A DNA stretch of 42,092 bases from Clostridiales bacterium. Lineage in GTDB: Bacteria; Bacillota; Clostridia; Peptostreptococcales; Anaerovoracaceae. The notes below the pieces were generated by a model. The model saw only the letters and a program-made list of their open reading frames with translations, ran no database searches and was not told the origin of the DNA. Both the position numbers and the translations under genes were made by a program. This document shows, piece after piece, positions 1-39,405 of the stretch (position 1 is the stretch's first letter; each line of letters opens with the position of its first letter). The stretch covers positions 1 to 42,092 of the forward strand of contig JALEQY010000102.1 of NCBI GenBank assembly GCA_022763735.1, written 5' to 3'.

Positions 1-300
1 GGAGGCGACATGACAAAAGTAGGTCCGCCGGACGGAGAAAGTACGGGAGAGTTCGCCCTGAGGATCAGAGGAGGATTTGAGGACCTGATGCAGCGCCATC
101 AGCTCAAAGCGCTGTCTTTGAGGCACAAGAAGGAGAATGCCCTTTCGGTGGCGGTATGCCATGGGGGCAGCATATCAGTGATAATGGAGATACTTTATCC
201 TGGAGTTAAAGATAATTTCTACCAGTGGATACCGGATCCGGGGCACGGTTATGTGCTTTATCTTGAAAATGGGGCTGTAGTGAATGCAGAGAAATTTTAG
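1..300 (+). CDS. Histidine phosphatase (phosphoglycerate mutase-like) family protein, 5'-truncated by the window edge
   Basis: The reading frame is open from base 1, so the ATG at 10 is probably an internal Met and not the start. What is present is the C-terminal half of a histidine phosphatase. A PPDGES segment matches the usual P-x-GES motif, and AVCHGGSISVIM holds the second conserved His of the fold. A C-terminal W-x-PDPGHGY region follows, as in CobC/GpmB-like enzymes. The N-terminal RHG motif with the phosphorylated His must lie before the window. GGAGG at 1-5 resembles a ribosome site, but here it encodes Gly-Gly within the protein. The substrate cannot be told from this part. cysK begins 9 bases after the stop, so the two are probably co-transcribed. 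Confidence 0.7.
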   Translation, partial: GGDMTKVGPPDGESTGEFALRIRGGFEDLMQRHQLKALSLRHKKENALSVAVCHGGSISVIMEILYPGVKDNFYQWIPDPGHGYVLYLENGAVVNAEKF

Positions 301-309
301 GAGGCAGTT

Positions 310-1242
310 ATGAAAATCAGGAATACCGTTACTGAGCTGATCGGAGGCACACCGCTTCTGAGACTGGGTAAAATGGAAAAGAAATTCGGTACTGCAGGTG
401 AGCTTGTCGCCAAGGTTGAGTTTTTTAACCCTGCAGGAAGCATCAAGGACAGAGTCGGATATAATATGGTGATAGAGGCGGAAAAGGACGGCAGACTGAA
501 ACCGGGTGGGACGATAATTGAGCCCACCAGTGGCAATACAGGCGTAGGTATCGCTATGACAGCAGCGGCTCGCGGCTATAAGGCTATCATGGTTATGCCC
601 GAAAGTATGAGCATGGAAAGGCGTATGCTGCTGGCGGCTTTTGGTGCTGAGCTTGTGCTTACCGATAAGGAGAAAGGCATGCAGGGCAGTGTGGAAAAGG
701 CACAGCAGCTGGCTGAGGAAATCCCGGGCAGTATCATTGCAGGTCAGTTTGAAAATCCAGCCAATCCGCAGGCTCATTATGAGACTACCGGACCGGAGAT
801 ATGGGCGGATACGGACGGACAGGTGGATATTCTGGTGGCAACATTCGGGACAGGAGGAACTGTTTCAGGAGTCGGGAAATATCTGAAAGAAAAGAATCCG
901 GACATAAAGGTTGTTGCCATTGAACCTGCAGCATCACCGCTGATTACTGCAGGCAAGGCAGGTCCCCATAAAATTCAGGGTATAGGTGCCAATTTCATTC
1001 CGGAGGTGCTGGACAGAAGCGTGATAGATGAGGTTATGACAGTTACCGATGATGATGCGCTGGATACGATGAAGGCACTGGCTGTAAGCGAAGGGCTTCT
1101 GGTGGGAGTATCATCGGGTGCCGCAGTTTACGGGGCGTCACAGGTTGCTGCACGTCCTGAGAACGAGGGCAAGAGGATTGTTGTTATCCTGCCGGATACA
1201 GGCGAGAGATATCTGAGCATATTCCAGCAGGAAGAAAGATAA
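310..1242 (+). CDS. cysK: Cysteine synthase (O-acetylserine sulfhydrylase)
   Basis: This PLP enzyme makes L-cysteine from O-acetylserine and sulfide in the cytoplasm. At 310 residues it has the normal length. The PLP lysine is K46 in NPAGSIKDR, the substrate loop TSGNTG is at 73-78, and the phosphate-binding loop GTGGT is near residue 180. The C-terminal PDTGERYLS is typical of the CysK/CysM group. The ATG is preceded by AGGAGG (299-304) at good spacing. It may be read with the phosphatase upstream. CysM (thiosulfate-using) or a beta-cystathionine-type homologue cannot be fully excluded, but the motif set fits CysK best. A weak hairpin (GCGGAA 1243-1248 with TTCCGC 1291-1296) follows the stop. 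Confidence 0.93.
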   Translation: MKIRNTVTELIGGTPLLRLGKMEKKFGTAGELVAKVEFFNPAGSIKDRVGYNMVIEAEKDGRLKPGGTIIEPTSGNTGVGIAMTAAARGYKAIMVMPESMSMERRMLLAAFGAELVLTDKEKGMQGSVEKAQQLAEEIPGSIIAGQFENPANPQAHYETTGPEIWADTDGQVDILVATFGTGGTVSGVGKYLKEKNPDIKVVAIEPAASPLITAGKAGPHKIQGIGANFIPEVLDRSVIDEVMTVTDDDALDTMKALAVSEGLLVGVSSGAAVYGASQVAARPENEGKRIVVILPDTGERYLSIFQQEER

Positions 1243-1314
1243 GCGGAAGCACCGGGATTTATTCTGACTGCCATTCAATGGTGAACAGGGTTTCCGCCAC
1301 ACAAGGAGGATAGT

Positions 1315-2208
1315 ATGAAGGATATCATTTCAGTTGCAGTTGTCAACTTCAAAGTGAATGCAGCAGATAAGGAGAACAATCTTTCAAGAATGTGCGGCTA
1401 TGCTGAAGCTGCAGCTAAACGGGGCGCAGATCTGATACTGTTTCCTGAGCTTTGCCTTTATGGTTATGATTTCTACGTGGATGAAGATGTTACACAGGCT
1501 GACAAGATCCTGACAGCAGAAACCATCAGCGGACCATCATGTGCAGCTTTAGCGGAAGTTGCCGGAAAATACGGTATCTACATAGTATTCGGCATGGCAG
1601 AGAAAGCAGAAGATACAGCAGACTCGGTACTTTACAACTCAGCAGTAGCAATAGGACCGGACGGAGTAATAGGTTCATACAGGAAGATGCACCCCTTTGA
1701 AACAGAGAGTATCTGGTGTGAGAAGGGTGACAGACCTTTCATGTTTGATACACCATGGGGTCCGGTATCAGTAGGAATATGCTTTGATACATATCAGTTC
1801 CCGGAACTGCAGAGATATTACTGTGCTCAGGGTTCAAGACTTTATCTGAATCCTACAGCTGTAGTTGAAGAAATTCCAAAGGAAGGCAGCAGGCAGGCTT
1901 TTATTGATTACTATGCACCGACTCTGGAGTATGGTGTACTGTGCAACACAATATATGTTGCAAGCTCAAATCTTACTGGCAGAGATATTGTAAACTACTT
2001 TGGCGGCGGAAGCTGCATGATAGGACCTGCGATATCACCGTTCTATGAAACCGGTCTGCATTATTACTGCGGTAACAAGAATAACGTTCAGGAAGAATTA
2101 TTCATAGCCACAATAGATCTCTCCCTTGCCACGAGAAGACTCTTTACCAGCAAGGAGATTACAGGTGTTCCTGACTACAGACCGGAGATTTATAAGCAGT
2201 TTATATGA
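1315..2208 (+). CDS. Carbon-nitrogen hydrolase (nitrilase superfamily) of unknown substrate
   Basis: A 297-residue nitrilase-superfamily amidohydrolase. The catalytic triad is visible: E45 in LFPELCLYGY, K124 in YRKMHP and C156 in GICFDTYQFPE. The family hydrolyses amide C-N bonds, usually releasing ammonia from a small amide or carbamoyl substrate. Length and the SYRKMHP segment fit the aliphatic-amidase/N-carbamoyl-D-amino-acid amidohydrolase-like branches, but I cannot name the substrate. The ribosome site AAGGAGG lies just before the ATG. A strong terminator follows the stop, so this is the last gene of its unit. Its position before a purine operon whose PurF lacks a glutaminase site is noted as a finding; the link is speculative. 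Confidence 0.85.
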   Translation: MKDIISVAVVNFKVNAADKENNLSRMCGYAEAAAKRGADLILFPELCLYGYDFYVDEDVTQADKILTAETISGPSCAALAEVAGKYGIYIVFGMAEKAEDTADSVLYNSAVAIGPDGVIGSYRKMHPFETESIWCEKGDRPFMFDTPWGPVSVGICFDTYQFPELQRYYCAQGSRLYLNPTAVVEEIPKEGSRQAFIDYYAPTLEYGVLCNTIYVASSNLTGRDIVNYFGGGSCMIGPAISPFYETGLHYYCGNKNNVQEELFIATIDLSLATRRLFTSKEITGVPDYRPEIYKQFI

Positions 2209-2224
2209 AAATATCTGATATAGA

Positions 2225-2258
2225 ACAAAACCGATGCCTGTTACAGCATCGGTTTTGT
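2225..2258 (+). terminator. Intrinsic terminator after the nitrilase-family gene
   Basis: A 13-bp perfect stem, ACAAAACCGATGC (2225-2237) with GCATCGGTTTTGT (2246-2258), encloses an 8-base loop. The T-run lies in the 3' arm. It sits 17 bases after the stop at 2208. Confidence 0.85.
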
Positions 2259-2403
2259 CCATAGTCACATATTATTTATTATTTATTTAGGAGAGGTGGT
2301 TTTGTTTGGTACGCTTATATAATAACAATGGATTATGCTGTTTTAGCGTACTGAATGTGAAGAGTTGCTGAAGAAGATGTGGTGAAAAGAAGTTTGAAGC
2401 AGT

Positions 2404-2448
2404 AATTTCGACGTGTCAAATTCTTAAAGCAGGTGGAACGTCGAAAAA
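2404..2448. repeat. Interrupted palindrome unit 1
   Basis: The left arm TTTCGACGTGTCA (2406-2418) pairs with the right arm ACGTCGAAAA (2438-2447). Its T-run is shorter than in units 2-4. Confidence 0.8.
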
Positions 2449-2475
2449 ATTTTGCTTGCCAAAACGAAGTGATTA

Positions 2476-2520
2476 TTTTTCGACGTGTCAGTGCAGAATT
2501 GATTACAGTACGTCGAAAAT
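2476..2520. repeat. Interrupted palindrome unit 2
   Basis: Left arm TTTTTCGACGTGTCA (2476-2490), right arm ACGTCGAAAAT (2510-2520). The interior is unlike that of unit 1. Confidence 0.85.
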
Positions 2521-2580
2521 TTCATACGAGATTCAATACAAACTGACAACACCTAGAGATCGAGAGGAATATTATATGAT

Positions 2581-2625
2581 TTTTTCGACGTGTCGCTGCC
2601 TTGGAGTGTGAAACACGTCGAAAAT
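2581..2625. repeat. Interrupted palindrome unit 3 (best pairing)
   Basis: TTTTCGACGTGT (2582-2593) and ACACGTCGAAAA (2613-2624) form a perfect 12-bp stem around a 19-base loop. Confidence 0.85.
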
Positions 2626-2653
2626 GTTATCAGCAGAACTGGTCACAAAATTA

Positions 2654-2698
2654 TTTTTCGACGTGTCGTACCCTTAAAATATGAAACGCGTCGAAAAT
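2654..2698. repeat. Interrupted palindrome unit 4
   Basis: Left arm TTTTTCGACGTGTC (2654-2667), right arm CGCGTCGAAAAT (2687-2698). One base (G for A at 2688) breaks the perfect dyad. The flank GAAAC before the right arm is shared with unit 3. Confidence 0.85.
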
Positions 2699-2764
2699 GC
2701 CTCTCAAGTCCTTTTTTTTGCAAAAGGACTCTATATTAGGCGTCGAAATCAACGCACACCGCAA

Positions 2765-2810
2765 AAACGCGAACTTTAAAATGTAAATGATGCTACAATG
2801 TTCGGAAAAT
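2765..2810. promoter_or_regulatory. PurBox-like inverted pair (candidate PurR operator)
   Basis: The PurR box of Bacillota is roughly AWWWCCGAACWWT. On the reverse strand, bases 2797-2809 match 12 of 13 positions (plus strand AATGTTCGGAAAA). On the forward strand, AAACGCGAACTTT at 2765-2777 matches 11 of 13. The two face each other with 19 bases between them, close to the 16-17 known for PurR box pairs. The extended -10 motif at 2791-2799 overlaps the second box, as expected for repression. Matches were made by eye; no PurR gene lies in the window. Confidence 0.55.
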
Positions 2811-2842
2811 GTTGAAATTTCATAGTTTTTTAATGAAAAAGA

Positions 2843-2871
2843 TTGATTAAAAAAAGCAAAAGTGCTAACAT
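2843..2871 (+). promoter_or_regulatory. Candidate sigma-A promoter for the purine operon
   Basis: TTGATT (2843-2848), a 17-base spacer, and TAACAT (2866-2871) preceded by TG-C, giving an extended -10. A second extended -10, TGCTACAAT, lies at 2791-2799 within the PurBox pair but has no clear -35. A perfect TATAAT at 2968-2973 also lacks a -35. Which one is used cannot be decided from sequence. Confidence 0.45.
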
Positions 2872-2903
2872 TACATTATCAAAGAAGAACAGAAATGGAA
2901 TAA

Positions 2904-2925
2904 CGGAGCTTCTGCTCCGGTTTTT
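2904..2925 (+). terminator. Terminator-like hairpin in the purL leader (possible attenuator)
   Basis: CGGAGC (2904-2909), loop TTCT, GCTCCG (2914-2919), then G and five T. It is a compact intrinsic-terminator shape. It lies downstream of the promoter candidates at 2791 and 2843, so it would have to be read through for purL expression. It could instead end a transcript from the palindrome array. A second hairpin (GGCAG/CTGCC, about 2945-2962) follows before the ribosome site. Confidence 0.6.
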
Positions 2926-3002
2926 CCGTGTAAACTCTGCAGCGGGCAGCTGTTAACTGCCGGGCAGTATAATTGCACACAGATCAGAAAGGACGAATAT
3001 CC

Positions 3003-6000
3003 ATGGTAAGAAGAATTTATGTTGAAAAGAAAAAAGGCTTCGATGTTGAAGCGGCATCACTCTTCAATGATATCAGGGAGAACCTTCACATTAAAGAACT
3101 TACAGGTGTAAGGGTACTTAACCGATATGATATTGACGGAATTGATGATGCTACTTATGAAGCAGCTAAACTTACAGTATTTGCAGAACCGGCTATAGAC
3201 GTCGTATATGAAGAAACGATGCCTGAAGAATTGGGTTCTGCTATTTTTTTCGCAGTGGAATATCTGCCGGGACAGTATGATCAGAGAGCGGATTCTGCAT
3301 CACAGTGTATCAAGCTCATGAATGCGGAGGCGGACGCTACAGTTAAATTTGCCAGAGTTATAATTCTCGAAGGCGATCTTGATGACCAGCAGGTTGAAAC
3401 AATCAGAAGCTACTGCGTAAACCCTGTTGATTCACAGATTGCAGCCGATGAGAAGCCTGAGAATCTCGAAATGGAAACAACAGTGCCGGAGGATGTGGCA
3501 GTTATCACAGGTTTCAGAACCATGGATGAAGCAACACTGGAAAACTACAGAAAAAAAATGGGATTTGCCATGAGTCCTGCAGATATCCAGTTCGTACAGA
3601 AATATTATGCAGAGGACGAAGACAGAGACCCGACTCTCACAGAGTTGAAGGTTATTGACACATACTGGTCAGATCACTGCAGACATACAACCTTTAATAC
3701 AACACTTGAGGAAGTGACTTTTGAAGACAGTCCTTACGGCAGGATTGTCAAAGAGGCATTTGACCAGTACATGGCTATGAGGAAAGACGTATACGGAGAT
3801 AGAGATAAGAATCTCTGCCTCATGGATATGGCATGTATCGGAGCTAAATATCTCAAAAAGCACGGCAAAGTTGACAATCTCGATGAATCAGAGGAAATCA
3901 ATGCATGCAGCATCAAGGTGAAGGCAAAAATAGACGGTAAGGAGGAAGACTGGCTCGTTATGTTCAAGAACGAGACCCATAACCATCCGACAGAAATCGA
4001 ACCATTCGGCGGAGCTGCAACATGTCTTGGCGGAGCAATCAGAGACCCGCTTTCAGGAAGAGTATATGTTTATCAGGCAATGAGAGTGACCGGTGCAGCA
4101 GATCCGAGAAAGCCTATCGAGGAAACACTGGCAGGCAAGCTTCCTCAGAGGAAGATCACTCAGGAGGCAGCTGCAGGCTACAGCTCATACGGCAACCAGA
4201 TAGGTCTGGCTACAGGACTTGTTGACGAAGTATACCACGAAAATTACGTTGCCAAGAGAATGGAAATCGGAGCAGTTGTAGGTGCAGCACCAGCAGACCA
4301 TGTTATCAGGAAGGTTCCTGCAAAAGGGGACGTGATCATACTGGTAGGCGGCAGAACAGGCCGTGACGGCTGCGGCGGAGCAACAGGCTCATCAAAAGAG
4401 CACACTGAGGAGTCAATCCTGCAGTGCGGTGCTGAAGTACAGAAGGGAAATCCGCCTGTAGAAAGAAATATCCAGAGAATGTTCAGAAGAAAGGAAGTTG
4501 CAACCCTCATCAAGAGATGCAATGACTTCGGAGCAGGCGGTGTTTCGGTAGCTATCGGAGAGCTGGCCGATGGTCTTGAAATCAACCTTGATCTGGTACC
4601 GAAGAAATACGAAGGTCTGGACGGAACAGAACTGGCAATCTCCGAATCCCAGGAGAGAATGGCAGTAGTTGTAGATGCAGACAAGGAAGCCGAATTTATT
4701 AAATACGCACATGAAGAAAACCTGGAAGCCACAACAGTAGCCAAGGTTACAGATACAAACAGAGTGAGGATGCACTGGAGAGGAAAATGCATACTGGATC
4801 TTTCCAGAGACTTCCTCAACACCAACGGAGCACAGCAGTTCGCCAAAGCATACGCTGCAAACGAAGTGACAGTGTCCCCTGCGGAGCTTTTTCACGAAAC
4901 CAGGATAAAGAAAGAGCTGCTGACAGACCTTAACTGCTGCAGCAAGAAGGGACTCATCGAAAGATTCGACAGCACCATCGGAGCAGCTACAGTTCTCATG
5001 CCTTTGGGCGGCAAATATCAGCTTTCACCGGCAGCAGGAATGGCAGCCAAACTTCCTGTGGTAAACGGGGAAACAGAGACAGCCACTATCATGGCCTATG
5101 GTTTTGACCCTGAATTTGCTGTAAAGAGCCCGTTCCACAGTGCCCTTTACGCGGTTGTCGACTCAGCAGCGAAGATTGCGGCAATGGGCGGTGATTACAG
5201 GAAAATCAGACTCACATTCCAGGAATATTTCGAGAAACTGGGTACGAGTGCGGCAAGATGGGGCAAGCCTATGGCTGCACTGCTGGGAGCCCTCAGAGTT
5301 CAGAAGGAGCTGGAAATTCCGGCAATCGGCGGCAAGGACAGTATGTCAGGAACCTTCATGGATATAGATGTTCCTCCGACCCTGACTTCATTTGCCATTA
5401 CAGATATCGATGCAGACGATATAGTGTCGACAGAGTTCAAGCAGGAGGGAAGCAGACTGGTTCTTCTGACTTCGCCGGTTGATGAAGACGGAATTCTTGA
5501 TTTTGAAGTGTTCAGGAAGAACCTCCTGAAGGTAAGAGAACTGGCAGCTGCAGGCAAGCTTCTGGCCGCAGATACCATCGGCAGAGGCGGACTTTATATC
5601 ACCCTCGTTAAGATGGCTGTCGGCAACGGAATCGGCGCAGATGTAAAGTGGGACGGTGATATTCTGGCACCGCTTTATGGTTCTCTGGTAATCGAAGTTG
5701 CTGCTGATGAGGATGTGGATGCACTGATGGCAGGAGCAGGGTATGCAGTTATAGGCGAAACCACAGCAGATGGAAAGCTGACTGTGAACGGCGAAGCTGA
5801 GTCTGTTGCTGAAATCACAGCTGAATGGCAGGAGCCTGTTGAAGGTGTATTCCCTGTAAGAACAGCAGACTTCAGAAATAAGAAGGATACAACTGCAGTA
5901 AGCAGAAGTCTGTATACAGATAGAAATTCAGCAGGACCAGCAATTAAAATTGCAAGACCGAAGGTAGTGATTCCAGCATTCCCTGGAACAAACTGCGAGG

Positions 6001-38655: not shown

Positions 38656-39405
38656 ATGGATAAGAATACAGTACTTGCTTTAAATAATGTAATATATCAG
38701 ATATATAATACTGAAGAATTTGAGGAAATGAAAAAGAATCTGCTGATTTCTGTAAGCACACTTGTTCCCAATGCATGCGGAAGTATTCTCATGGCTGCAG
38801 ATTCAGGCAGCGAAACTCTTCTCTGCGACCCGGTATGCTTTCCCGAAAGGTTTGTTGAGATGGAGAAAAGGTACATGCTGCTTGAGAAACGCGATTATGG
38901 CAGATGGATTATGCAGAGAAAGCAGACAACGATCATTACGGCTTCATCTATGATGAGCGATGAAGAACGCAGGTGTACAGAACTTTACAGAGCCTGTTTC
39001 TCACCATTCGGACTGCATTATTCAGTGGATATGACAATAGTGCATAAAGGAGAGTTTCTTGGGGTTATTGCGCTTTACAGGCGGGAAGATGAAGGGGACT
39101 TCACTGAAGATGAGATTTTTATTATGGAAAACCTGAGTGATCATCTGAATGTCAGGTTTTATAATGAACAGAAAAAGAGAGAAAACCCAGCGAATAAAAA
39201 TCACATGGGTTTTCTGATTAAAAAGTATGGACTTACTGCTCGTGAAGCAGAAATACTGCGTATGGTTTTCTCGGAAAAAACCAATGGTGAAATCTGCTCG
39301 GAGCTCTATATCAGCAATAACACTCTGAAAAAACATCTTCAGAATATATACCGAAAAACGGGTGTCCCTAATCGAATAGGTCTCATGGGCATCAGCTGTC
39401 TTTGA
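38656..39405 (+). CDS. LuxR-type transcriptional regulator with an N-terminal GAF-like sensor
   Basis: 249 residues. The first ~170 look like a GAF-type sensor: alternating strands, VPNACGSILMAA, and DMTIVHKGEFLGVIALYRRE near the domain end. The C-terminal part (about 185-249) is a LuxR/GerE helix-turn-helix with YGLTAREAEILRMVF and ELYISNNTLKKHLQNIYRKTG. It has no receiver domain, so it probably responds to a ligand and not to a kinase. It is divergent from the hydrogenase operon, a possible target. AAAGGAG lies seven bases before the ATG. Its 3' end overlaps the convergent EamA gene by 14 bases. Confidence 0.85.
   Translation: MDKNTVLALNNVIYQIYNTEEFEEMKKNLLISVSTLVPNACGSILMAADSGSETLLCDPVCFPERFVEMEKRYMLLEKRDYGRWIMQRKQTTIITASSMMSDEERRCTELYRACFSPFGLHYSVDMTIVHKGEFLGVIALYRREDEGDFTEDEIFIMENLSDHLNVRFYNEQKKRENPANKNHMGFLIKKYGLTAREAEILRMVFSEKTNGEICSELYISNNTLKKHLQNIYRKTGVPNRIGLMGISCL

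Follow-up and report, generated by a model that had tools for sequence, protein, structure and literature searches.

Dispersed palindromic repeats are common in bacteria, and their role is a long-standing question. In the stretch of DNA analysed here (the window; 42,092 nucleotides from a Clostridiales bacterium, genome G000), four interrupted palindromes with nearly identical arms and differing interiors lie between a nitrilase-like and a purL-like gene (Table 1). The original prediction took this as a sign of selection on the arms and offered a dimeric protein, RNA hairpins or a recombinase/mobile-element unit as causes. What reads these arms, and does it do so on DNA or on RNA?

Table 1. 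Features of the window around the palindrome array.
Feature	Position	Strand	Remarks
Palindrome 1	2406..2446	no strand	TTTCGACG-N25-CGTCGAAA, 41 bp
Palindrome 2	2478..2518	no strand	starts 72 bp from the start of palindrome 1
Palindrome 3	2583..2623	no strand	105 bp (10 turns) past palindrome 2
Palindrome 4	2656..2696	no strand	73 bp past palindrome 3
Whole array	2406..2696	no strand	homology with arrays elsewhere stops at or near the outer palindromes
Nitrilase-like gene	ends 2208		before the array; named from reading its translation
purL-like gene	ATG at 3003		after the array; named from reading its translation
PurBox-like inverted pair	2763-2810		CGAAC at 2770-2774, GTTCG at 2800-2804; 5' of the purL-like gene

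The four palindromes of fixed geometry are real: each consists of 8-bp arms (TTTCGACG and CGTCGAAA) around a 25-bp interior, 41 bp in total. The 45-bp length and 29-base distance first given for them express the same fixed geometry, but as figures they vary with the point taken as the end of the arm. The gaps between copies had been called irregular, which is wrong: the starts lie 7, 10 and 7 helical turns apart, and such steps of the 72/105/73 type recur in other arrays of the family. In all four window copies the left arm is further extended by GTGTC, while family-wide the nearly invariant part is TTTCGACG only and positions 9-11 show a preference. The half-site TTTTCGACGTGT, with up to two mismatches, is matched 12 times in the window against 2.26 expected. 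Palindrome 4 resembles the lone palindrome at the orthologous site of the close congener G031. The PurBox-like pair is separate from the array but matches its arms in how far the half-sites lie from the dyad.

To see how widely the palindrome occurs, we searched for TTTCGACG-N23..26-CGTCGAAA in 100 genomes (G000, 48 congeners and 51 others). There were 26 matches per strand in G000 against 0 for the reversed control and 63 per strand in G031 (reversed control, 1); the pattern was absent from the 47 other congeners and confined, among the genomes searched, to these two. With up to three mismatches allowed, 24 of 296 genomes matched, 22 of them with only 1-2 matches each, about the level of the reversed control. 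Confinement to this one locus, which the original prediction regarded as a sign against a functional system, is therefore not what we found: the arrays occupy seven loci in G000 and 15 groups in G031, yet only 2 of the 49 congeners carry them. In G000, six arrays have four palindromes and one, at a contig start, has three; in the fetched loci of G031 the groups hold 2-9 palindromes each, and there are two solo palindromes. The three-palindrome groups are L029 (at a contig start, without an inner palindrome present in L047), L056 (where the locus is cut) and L060 (near a contig end). The arrays lie between tandem, convergent and divergent genes, and the flanking genes, judged by eye from ORF lists, are mixed and ordinary-looking. 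A longer pattern run against genome contigs returned 14 stretches, 13 from the MAG Bacillota bacterium S22M_St_64 (= G031) and one from Methylocystis. The latter (L058, 1097-1178), one exact palindrome plus an extra half-site within an ORF, is read as a chance match, with a rough estimate of 0.05 such matches for the whole collection. No arrays were found in the viral contigs, plasmids and phages searched.

The spacing of the palindromes follows the DNA helix. All 66 intervals within the arrays of G000 and G031 fall into the classes 72-74 bp (45 intervals), 84 bp (1), 94-95 bp (12) and 104-105 bp (8), which are 7, 8, 9 and 10 turns of B-DNA. The duplicate array pair L050 of G031 differs in its middle interval, 104 vs 94 bp, by one turn. 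Sites that are whole helical turns apart would align several dimers on one face of the DNA.

The arms themselves are conserved. Comparison of four ortholog pairs shows 1 change in 224 sites at arm positions 1-8 and 12 in 84 at positions 9-11, against 62 of 262 in cores, 86 of 406 in linkers (21-24% for cores and linkers) and 187 of 790 in flanks; because all 15 array groups of G031 were fetched through the exact pattern, the figure for arm constraint is biased upward. The two solo G031 sites, which were reached through flanking genes, have intact arms. A single arm change each was seen in copy 3 of L025 and in copies 3 and 4 of L047. In the logo, arm positions 1-8 are nearly invariant, positions 9-11 prefer TGT and the core weakly prefers GCYYTTWAARRGC; copies were accepted with up to two arm mismatches, and the logo and the pairing tests described below used those 74 of the 89 copies that measure 41 bp, the solo palindrome L113 standing outside the 89. 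The contrast between 1 change in 224 arm positions and 62 in 262 core positions upholds the predicted selection on the arms. Arm constraint together with the phasing points to a dimeric protein that reads the arms on double-stranded DNA, its dimers bound in register, rather than to RNA. Of the proposed causes, dimer binding is supported by these sequence patterns, the spacing being direct evidence that these repeats are read by protein on double-stranded DNA.

How the arrays came to be dispersed can be followed in part. Long matches between non-orthologous arrays have 68-87% identity and end at or within ~16 bp of the outer palindromes (for example, the window array vs L026 and L027 vs L049). 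The recent copy pair L048/L060 also has 36 bp of one flank in common. At two loci, four palindromes in G000 stand against exactly one in G031, and the junction is the left arm. Two G031 arrays, L052 and L059, have flanks that match different G000 contigs: a rearrangement, or for L059 possibly a paralogue of 71% identity. The notion of a mobile or recombinase unit survives in part, in that homologous arrays occupy non-orthologous sites. Small non-coding units at non-orthologous sites are also a trait of MITEs; unlike those, the arrays have conserved internal sites, and no transposase-bearing long copy was seen. The array ends are themselves palindromes, at which homology stops, and the orthologous sites examined hold one palindrome or are rearranged, with neither a clean empty site nor a target-site duplication found among them. 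Selfish spread alone does not explain why the arms are kept at orthologous sites; this retention may reflect host use or continued turnover. In one subfamily (L047, L048 and L060), a GC-rich stretch like GCCGGCAGGCCGCAG directly borders the left side of the array.

The same architecture occurs with other arms. When stretches of related genomes were scanned for repeated interrupted palindromes, arrays with eight other arm sequences were obtained: TTCTATAAA (L164) and TTCAGCTAAA (L171 and L174) in G023, TTTTGTGTA in G022 (L149, two palindromes only), GTACACG in G030 (L187), ATTACCCGT and GATACATTT in G044 (L136/L243), TTTACGAAA at several sites of G000 and G031, and AGTCTCCAAA at several sites of G031. 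A strict scan of 1.44 Mb of contig-start sequence, sampled from nine genomes with G000 and G031 among them, gave three other-arm arrays, with the plain tandem duplication L198 (77 bp), one of four contig-start clusters, not counted as an array; Markov resamples of these samples gave 0 arrays in 5. When one mismatch per arm was tolerated, any given arm occurred in a single sampled genome (the GTACACG locus lies outside the sets), save TTTCGACGT, present in G000 and G031, and TTTACGAAA, present in G000 and G031 with one copy in G043.

The 21 distinct spacings of the eight other arm families have a period of 10.35 bp with a resultant of 0.89, which 0 of 5000 random sets equalled; this test left out (i) the off-phase doubtful pairs of 113 bp (L080/L244), 185 bp (L188) and 77 bp (L198), (ii) the spacings of 125 bp at L079 and 198 bp at L255, (iii) the single-word clusters at window position 39128, at L240 13268 and at L251, and (iv) the near-identical second AGTCTCCAAA array of L086. 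At 10.4 bp per turn, the spacings amount to 4.0, 5.0, 6.0-6.2, 6.9-7.2 and 8.0-8.1 turns, and the longer ones to 8.9-9.0, 11.2, 12.0, 13.0 and 13.9 turns. One geometry is present in several species of the genus, and each arm family has a sequence of its own.

Arrays of different families can be neighbours. In G031, TTTACGAAA palindromes lie beside other-arm arrays at L085 (9260) and L086 (8660), in the latter with a centre distance to the neighbouring array of 94 bp, or nine turns. In G044 (C118, 753-1258; L136/L243), a Y1 transposase gene of IS200 type adjoins two neighbouring arrays that differ in their arms.

A candidate for the reader of the arms is encoded near some of the arrays. The gene beside the L164 array encodes a protein of 251 aa. 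Homologues of it are encoded next to the C13 array of G000 and by the orthologous G031 gene (278 aa), with 34-36% identity over 138-167 aa and an E of ~1e-24 in a database of the ORFs of the loci fetched by that point. Members of this family are 250-280 aa long, and an alignment of seven of them shows invariant R-S, E177, D-F (D207) and W-E-H-x-G (E222-H223), so that the catalytic-type motif reads W-E-H instead of E-x-K. There was no match above cut-off in Pfam or NCBIfam. In PADLOC, the C-terminal domain of PDC-S68 matches that of all seven members tested (E 4e-34 to 4e-18), and PHROG gave a weak endonuclease match (E 9e-4). A single-sequence AlphaFold model had a pLDDT of 38, too low to use. 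We describe this previously uncharacterised family as having an N-terminal region of unassigned fold and a putative PD-(D/E)XK-like domain at the C-terminus. The resemblance to PDC-S68, a candidate defence protein of ~1200 aa, is limited to this one domain; the array-linked protein is far shorter and has another N-terminus. A tblastn search with the array-linked protein hit three unannotated phage records (human faeces) and eight plasmid places, all partial and in the C-terminal half only, while none of 26 pattern matches in viral contigs was confirmed.

Proximity of such a gene to an array was observed in four arm families. The distance is 123-126 bp for TTTCGACG arrays (L028/L054), 48 bp for the TTCTATAAA array (L164) and 125 bp for a TTCAGCTAAA array (L174); the GTACACG array (L187) is 980 bp from the gene, with an Rpn gene between. 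The family was defined from L028 and L164, both noticed because they stand beside arrays. Homology then added five members, L168, L174 and L184 (G023), L187/L101 (G030) and L188/L092 (G269), of which two, L174 and L187, have an array within 1.2 kb. L188 has one lone palindrome, its arms 13 bp long, placed 106 bp upstream of the gene, and no array was detected near L168 or L184. In the stretches read, no family member adjoins the TTTACGAAA, AGTCTCCAAA, TTTTGTGTA, ATTACCCGT and GATACATTT arrays, and in the contig-start sample one of the three arrays has one beside it. Few cases underlie the association of gene and array. L174 ties gene and arms together best: three palindromes upstream of the gene, seen by eye, have the TTCAGCTAAA arms of L171, an array that lies on a different contig of this genome and had been found before the L174 gene was known; these arms are absent from the other genomes sampled.

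Rpn/PDDEXK_2 genes also adjoin arrays repeatedly (L049, L050 and L086 in G031; L187 in G030, where the order is nuclease-like gene, Rpn, array). As a partner, Rpn/PDDEXK_2 (PF12784) was rejected: it adjoins arrays in G031 at L049 and L050 but was not found in G000, and it is present in 13 of 49 congeners.

We tentatively favour, at a little short of an even chance, a reading in which the window palindromes make up one copy of an intergenic element that is dispersed through the genome and composed of binding sites for a protein dimer, with the PD-(D/E)XK-like protein as its likeliest reader and a pairing like that of REP and RAYT, in which one gene has its own array and further arrays with the same arms are dispersed. 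Each 41-bp palindrome would be one dimer site, with two inverted half-sites of 8-12 bp about three turns apart around a free core, and several dimers on one face of the DNA would likely form one complex on double-stranded DNA. Less surely, the reader may be the PD-(D/E)XK-like protein encoded near the arrays, its N-terminal region perhaps reading the DNA and the protein perhaps cutting it. More speculatively, breaks or copying at the arms could let arrays spread, expand and shrink. The arrays and their neighbour gene suggest a system of protein-bound repeats that has not been described before; in the searches made of open-licence PMC papers, neither these arms nor this architecture turned up. 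It is possible, though we hold it with distinctly less than even confidence, that they form a class of prokaryotic repeat system of their own: a PD-(D/E)XK-like family that diversifies fast and whose members each read a half-site of their own (8-12 bp), with helically phased arrays multiplying along the chromosome and retained as functional nucleoprotein platforms. If so, this would be a double-stranded DNA counterpart of RAYT/REP. A candidate reader with testable arm specificity sits near the arrays, and arm families that have one geometry and differ between close species make the co-evolution of repeat and reader testable.

The main rival to a reading by the PD-(D/E)XK-like protein, doubtful but to be taken seriously, is that the arrays are sites for a host architectural or partition-like protein in chromosome organisation and that the nuclease-like gene is a mere neighbour. 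Orthologous loci do keep their arms between species, the flanks (by eye) have no evident bias to promoters or to one gene class, and the phasing implies a cooperative complex, all as such a protein would have it. It is harder to square with an arm present in 2 of 49 congeners, with the presence of several arm families in a single genome, a pattern not expected of one core protein of the chromosome, and with the match between the arms beside the L174 gene and those of another array in the same genome.

Far less probable is a classical REP/BIME moved by an IS200/IS605-type (Y1) transposase. Dispersed intergenic palindromes fit this, Y1_Tnp genes are present in G000 (two) and G031 (one), and the Y1_Tnp locus of G044 (L136/L243) adjoins two other-arm arrays. 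However, of the 14 congeners (among 49) that have Y1_Tnp, 12 lack this arm, and the Y1 loci of G000 and G031 (L133, L135 and L256) have no TTTCGACG palindromes. As described in PMC3733652, the GTAG and CGTC super-families of REP/BIME have an unpaired GTAG or CGTC tag at one end, hairpins with a stem of 8-9 bp and a loop of 4-5 bp (CGTC) or a stem of 5-13 and a loop of 2-20 (GTAG), and, for GTAG families, an accompanying Y1 (RAYT) transposase gene. Set against that description, CGTC occurs in our arrays only within the paired arm and, by symmetry, at both ends, and in the 41-bp copies a 25-bp interior separates the invariant 8-bp arms; where the pairing arms of a copy are longer, its inner gap is near 17-21, which the GTAG loop range alone would not exclude. 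No Y1 partner accompanies the TTTCGACG arrays, although the Y1 gene at L136 does adjoin arrays with other arms. The arrays do share with REP/BIME/REPIN and RAYT that they are short, dispersed, intergenic and clustered palindromes, specific to one or a few species, with apparently one gene for several repeat loci. They differ in having arms of 8-12 bp round a free core of ~16-25 bp instead of a short-loop hairpin, in lacking a GTAG tag at one end or an unpaired CGTC tag, in their spacing by turns of B-DNA, and in a PD-(D/E)XK-like candidate partner where RAYT is a Y1 HUH enzyme. We file them as a variant of the dispersed-palindrome-plus-enzyme kind whose defining features are other than those of REP/RAYT.

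A transcribed RNA element with four hairpins, the structured RNA of the original prediction, is very improbable. The arms can pair, and among the 74 copies that measure 41 bp, matches at positions 9 and 10 exceed those in shuffles (p 0.0025 and <0.001), but the excess is weak in a non-redundant set of 34 copies (p 0.14 and 0.08), which leaves no clear covariation, and the sequence of the arms is fixed beyond mere pairing. Rfam models matched neither window 1-6000 nor any of four G031 loci. The spacing also disfavours RNA, since its steps are of one B-DNA turn and an RNA would not set the linker length in this way. That PurR, the purine repressor, or one of its paralogues uses the arms as operators, as the nearby purL and the shared dyad offset of CGA in the arms and the PurBox pair (2768-2804) might suggest, is scarcely credible: G000 and G031 have only one PuR_N gene each, PuR_N occurs in 11 of 49 congeners, 9 of which lack this arm, and the other arrays do not look purine-linked (by eye, ORF starts).

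Two further kinds of array invite comparison. Replicons and repressors have phased operator or iteron arrays, in which several protein sites likewise share one DNA face; unlike those, the present arrays stand at many loci, not beside one rep, par or regulated gene, and there are several arm families per genome. CRISPR arrays too are spaced palindromic units with variable parts, but here only the arms repeat and the cores vary within the unit; no cas genes were recognised by eye in the ORFs listed.

Finally, palindromes were also seen 5' of purL in two relatives. A degenerate TCTATA group in G023 (L080/L244), in the same purL-upstream region as the window array, was considered as a second copy of the L164 family and rejected, as it failed the one-mismatch test; the ORF before it is Mrr-like by eye, with a short C-terminal match to an FtsK model. 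In G043 (L079, 756-914), two AGTAACA palindromes lie 125 bp apart, the first of them terminator-like.
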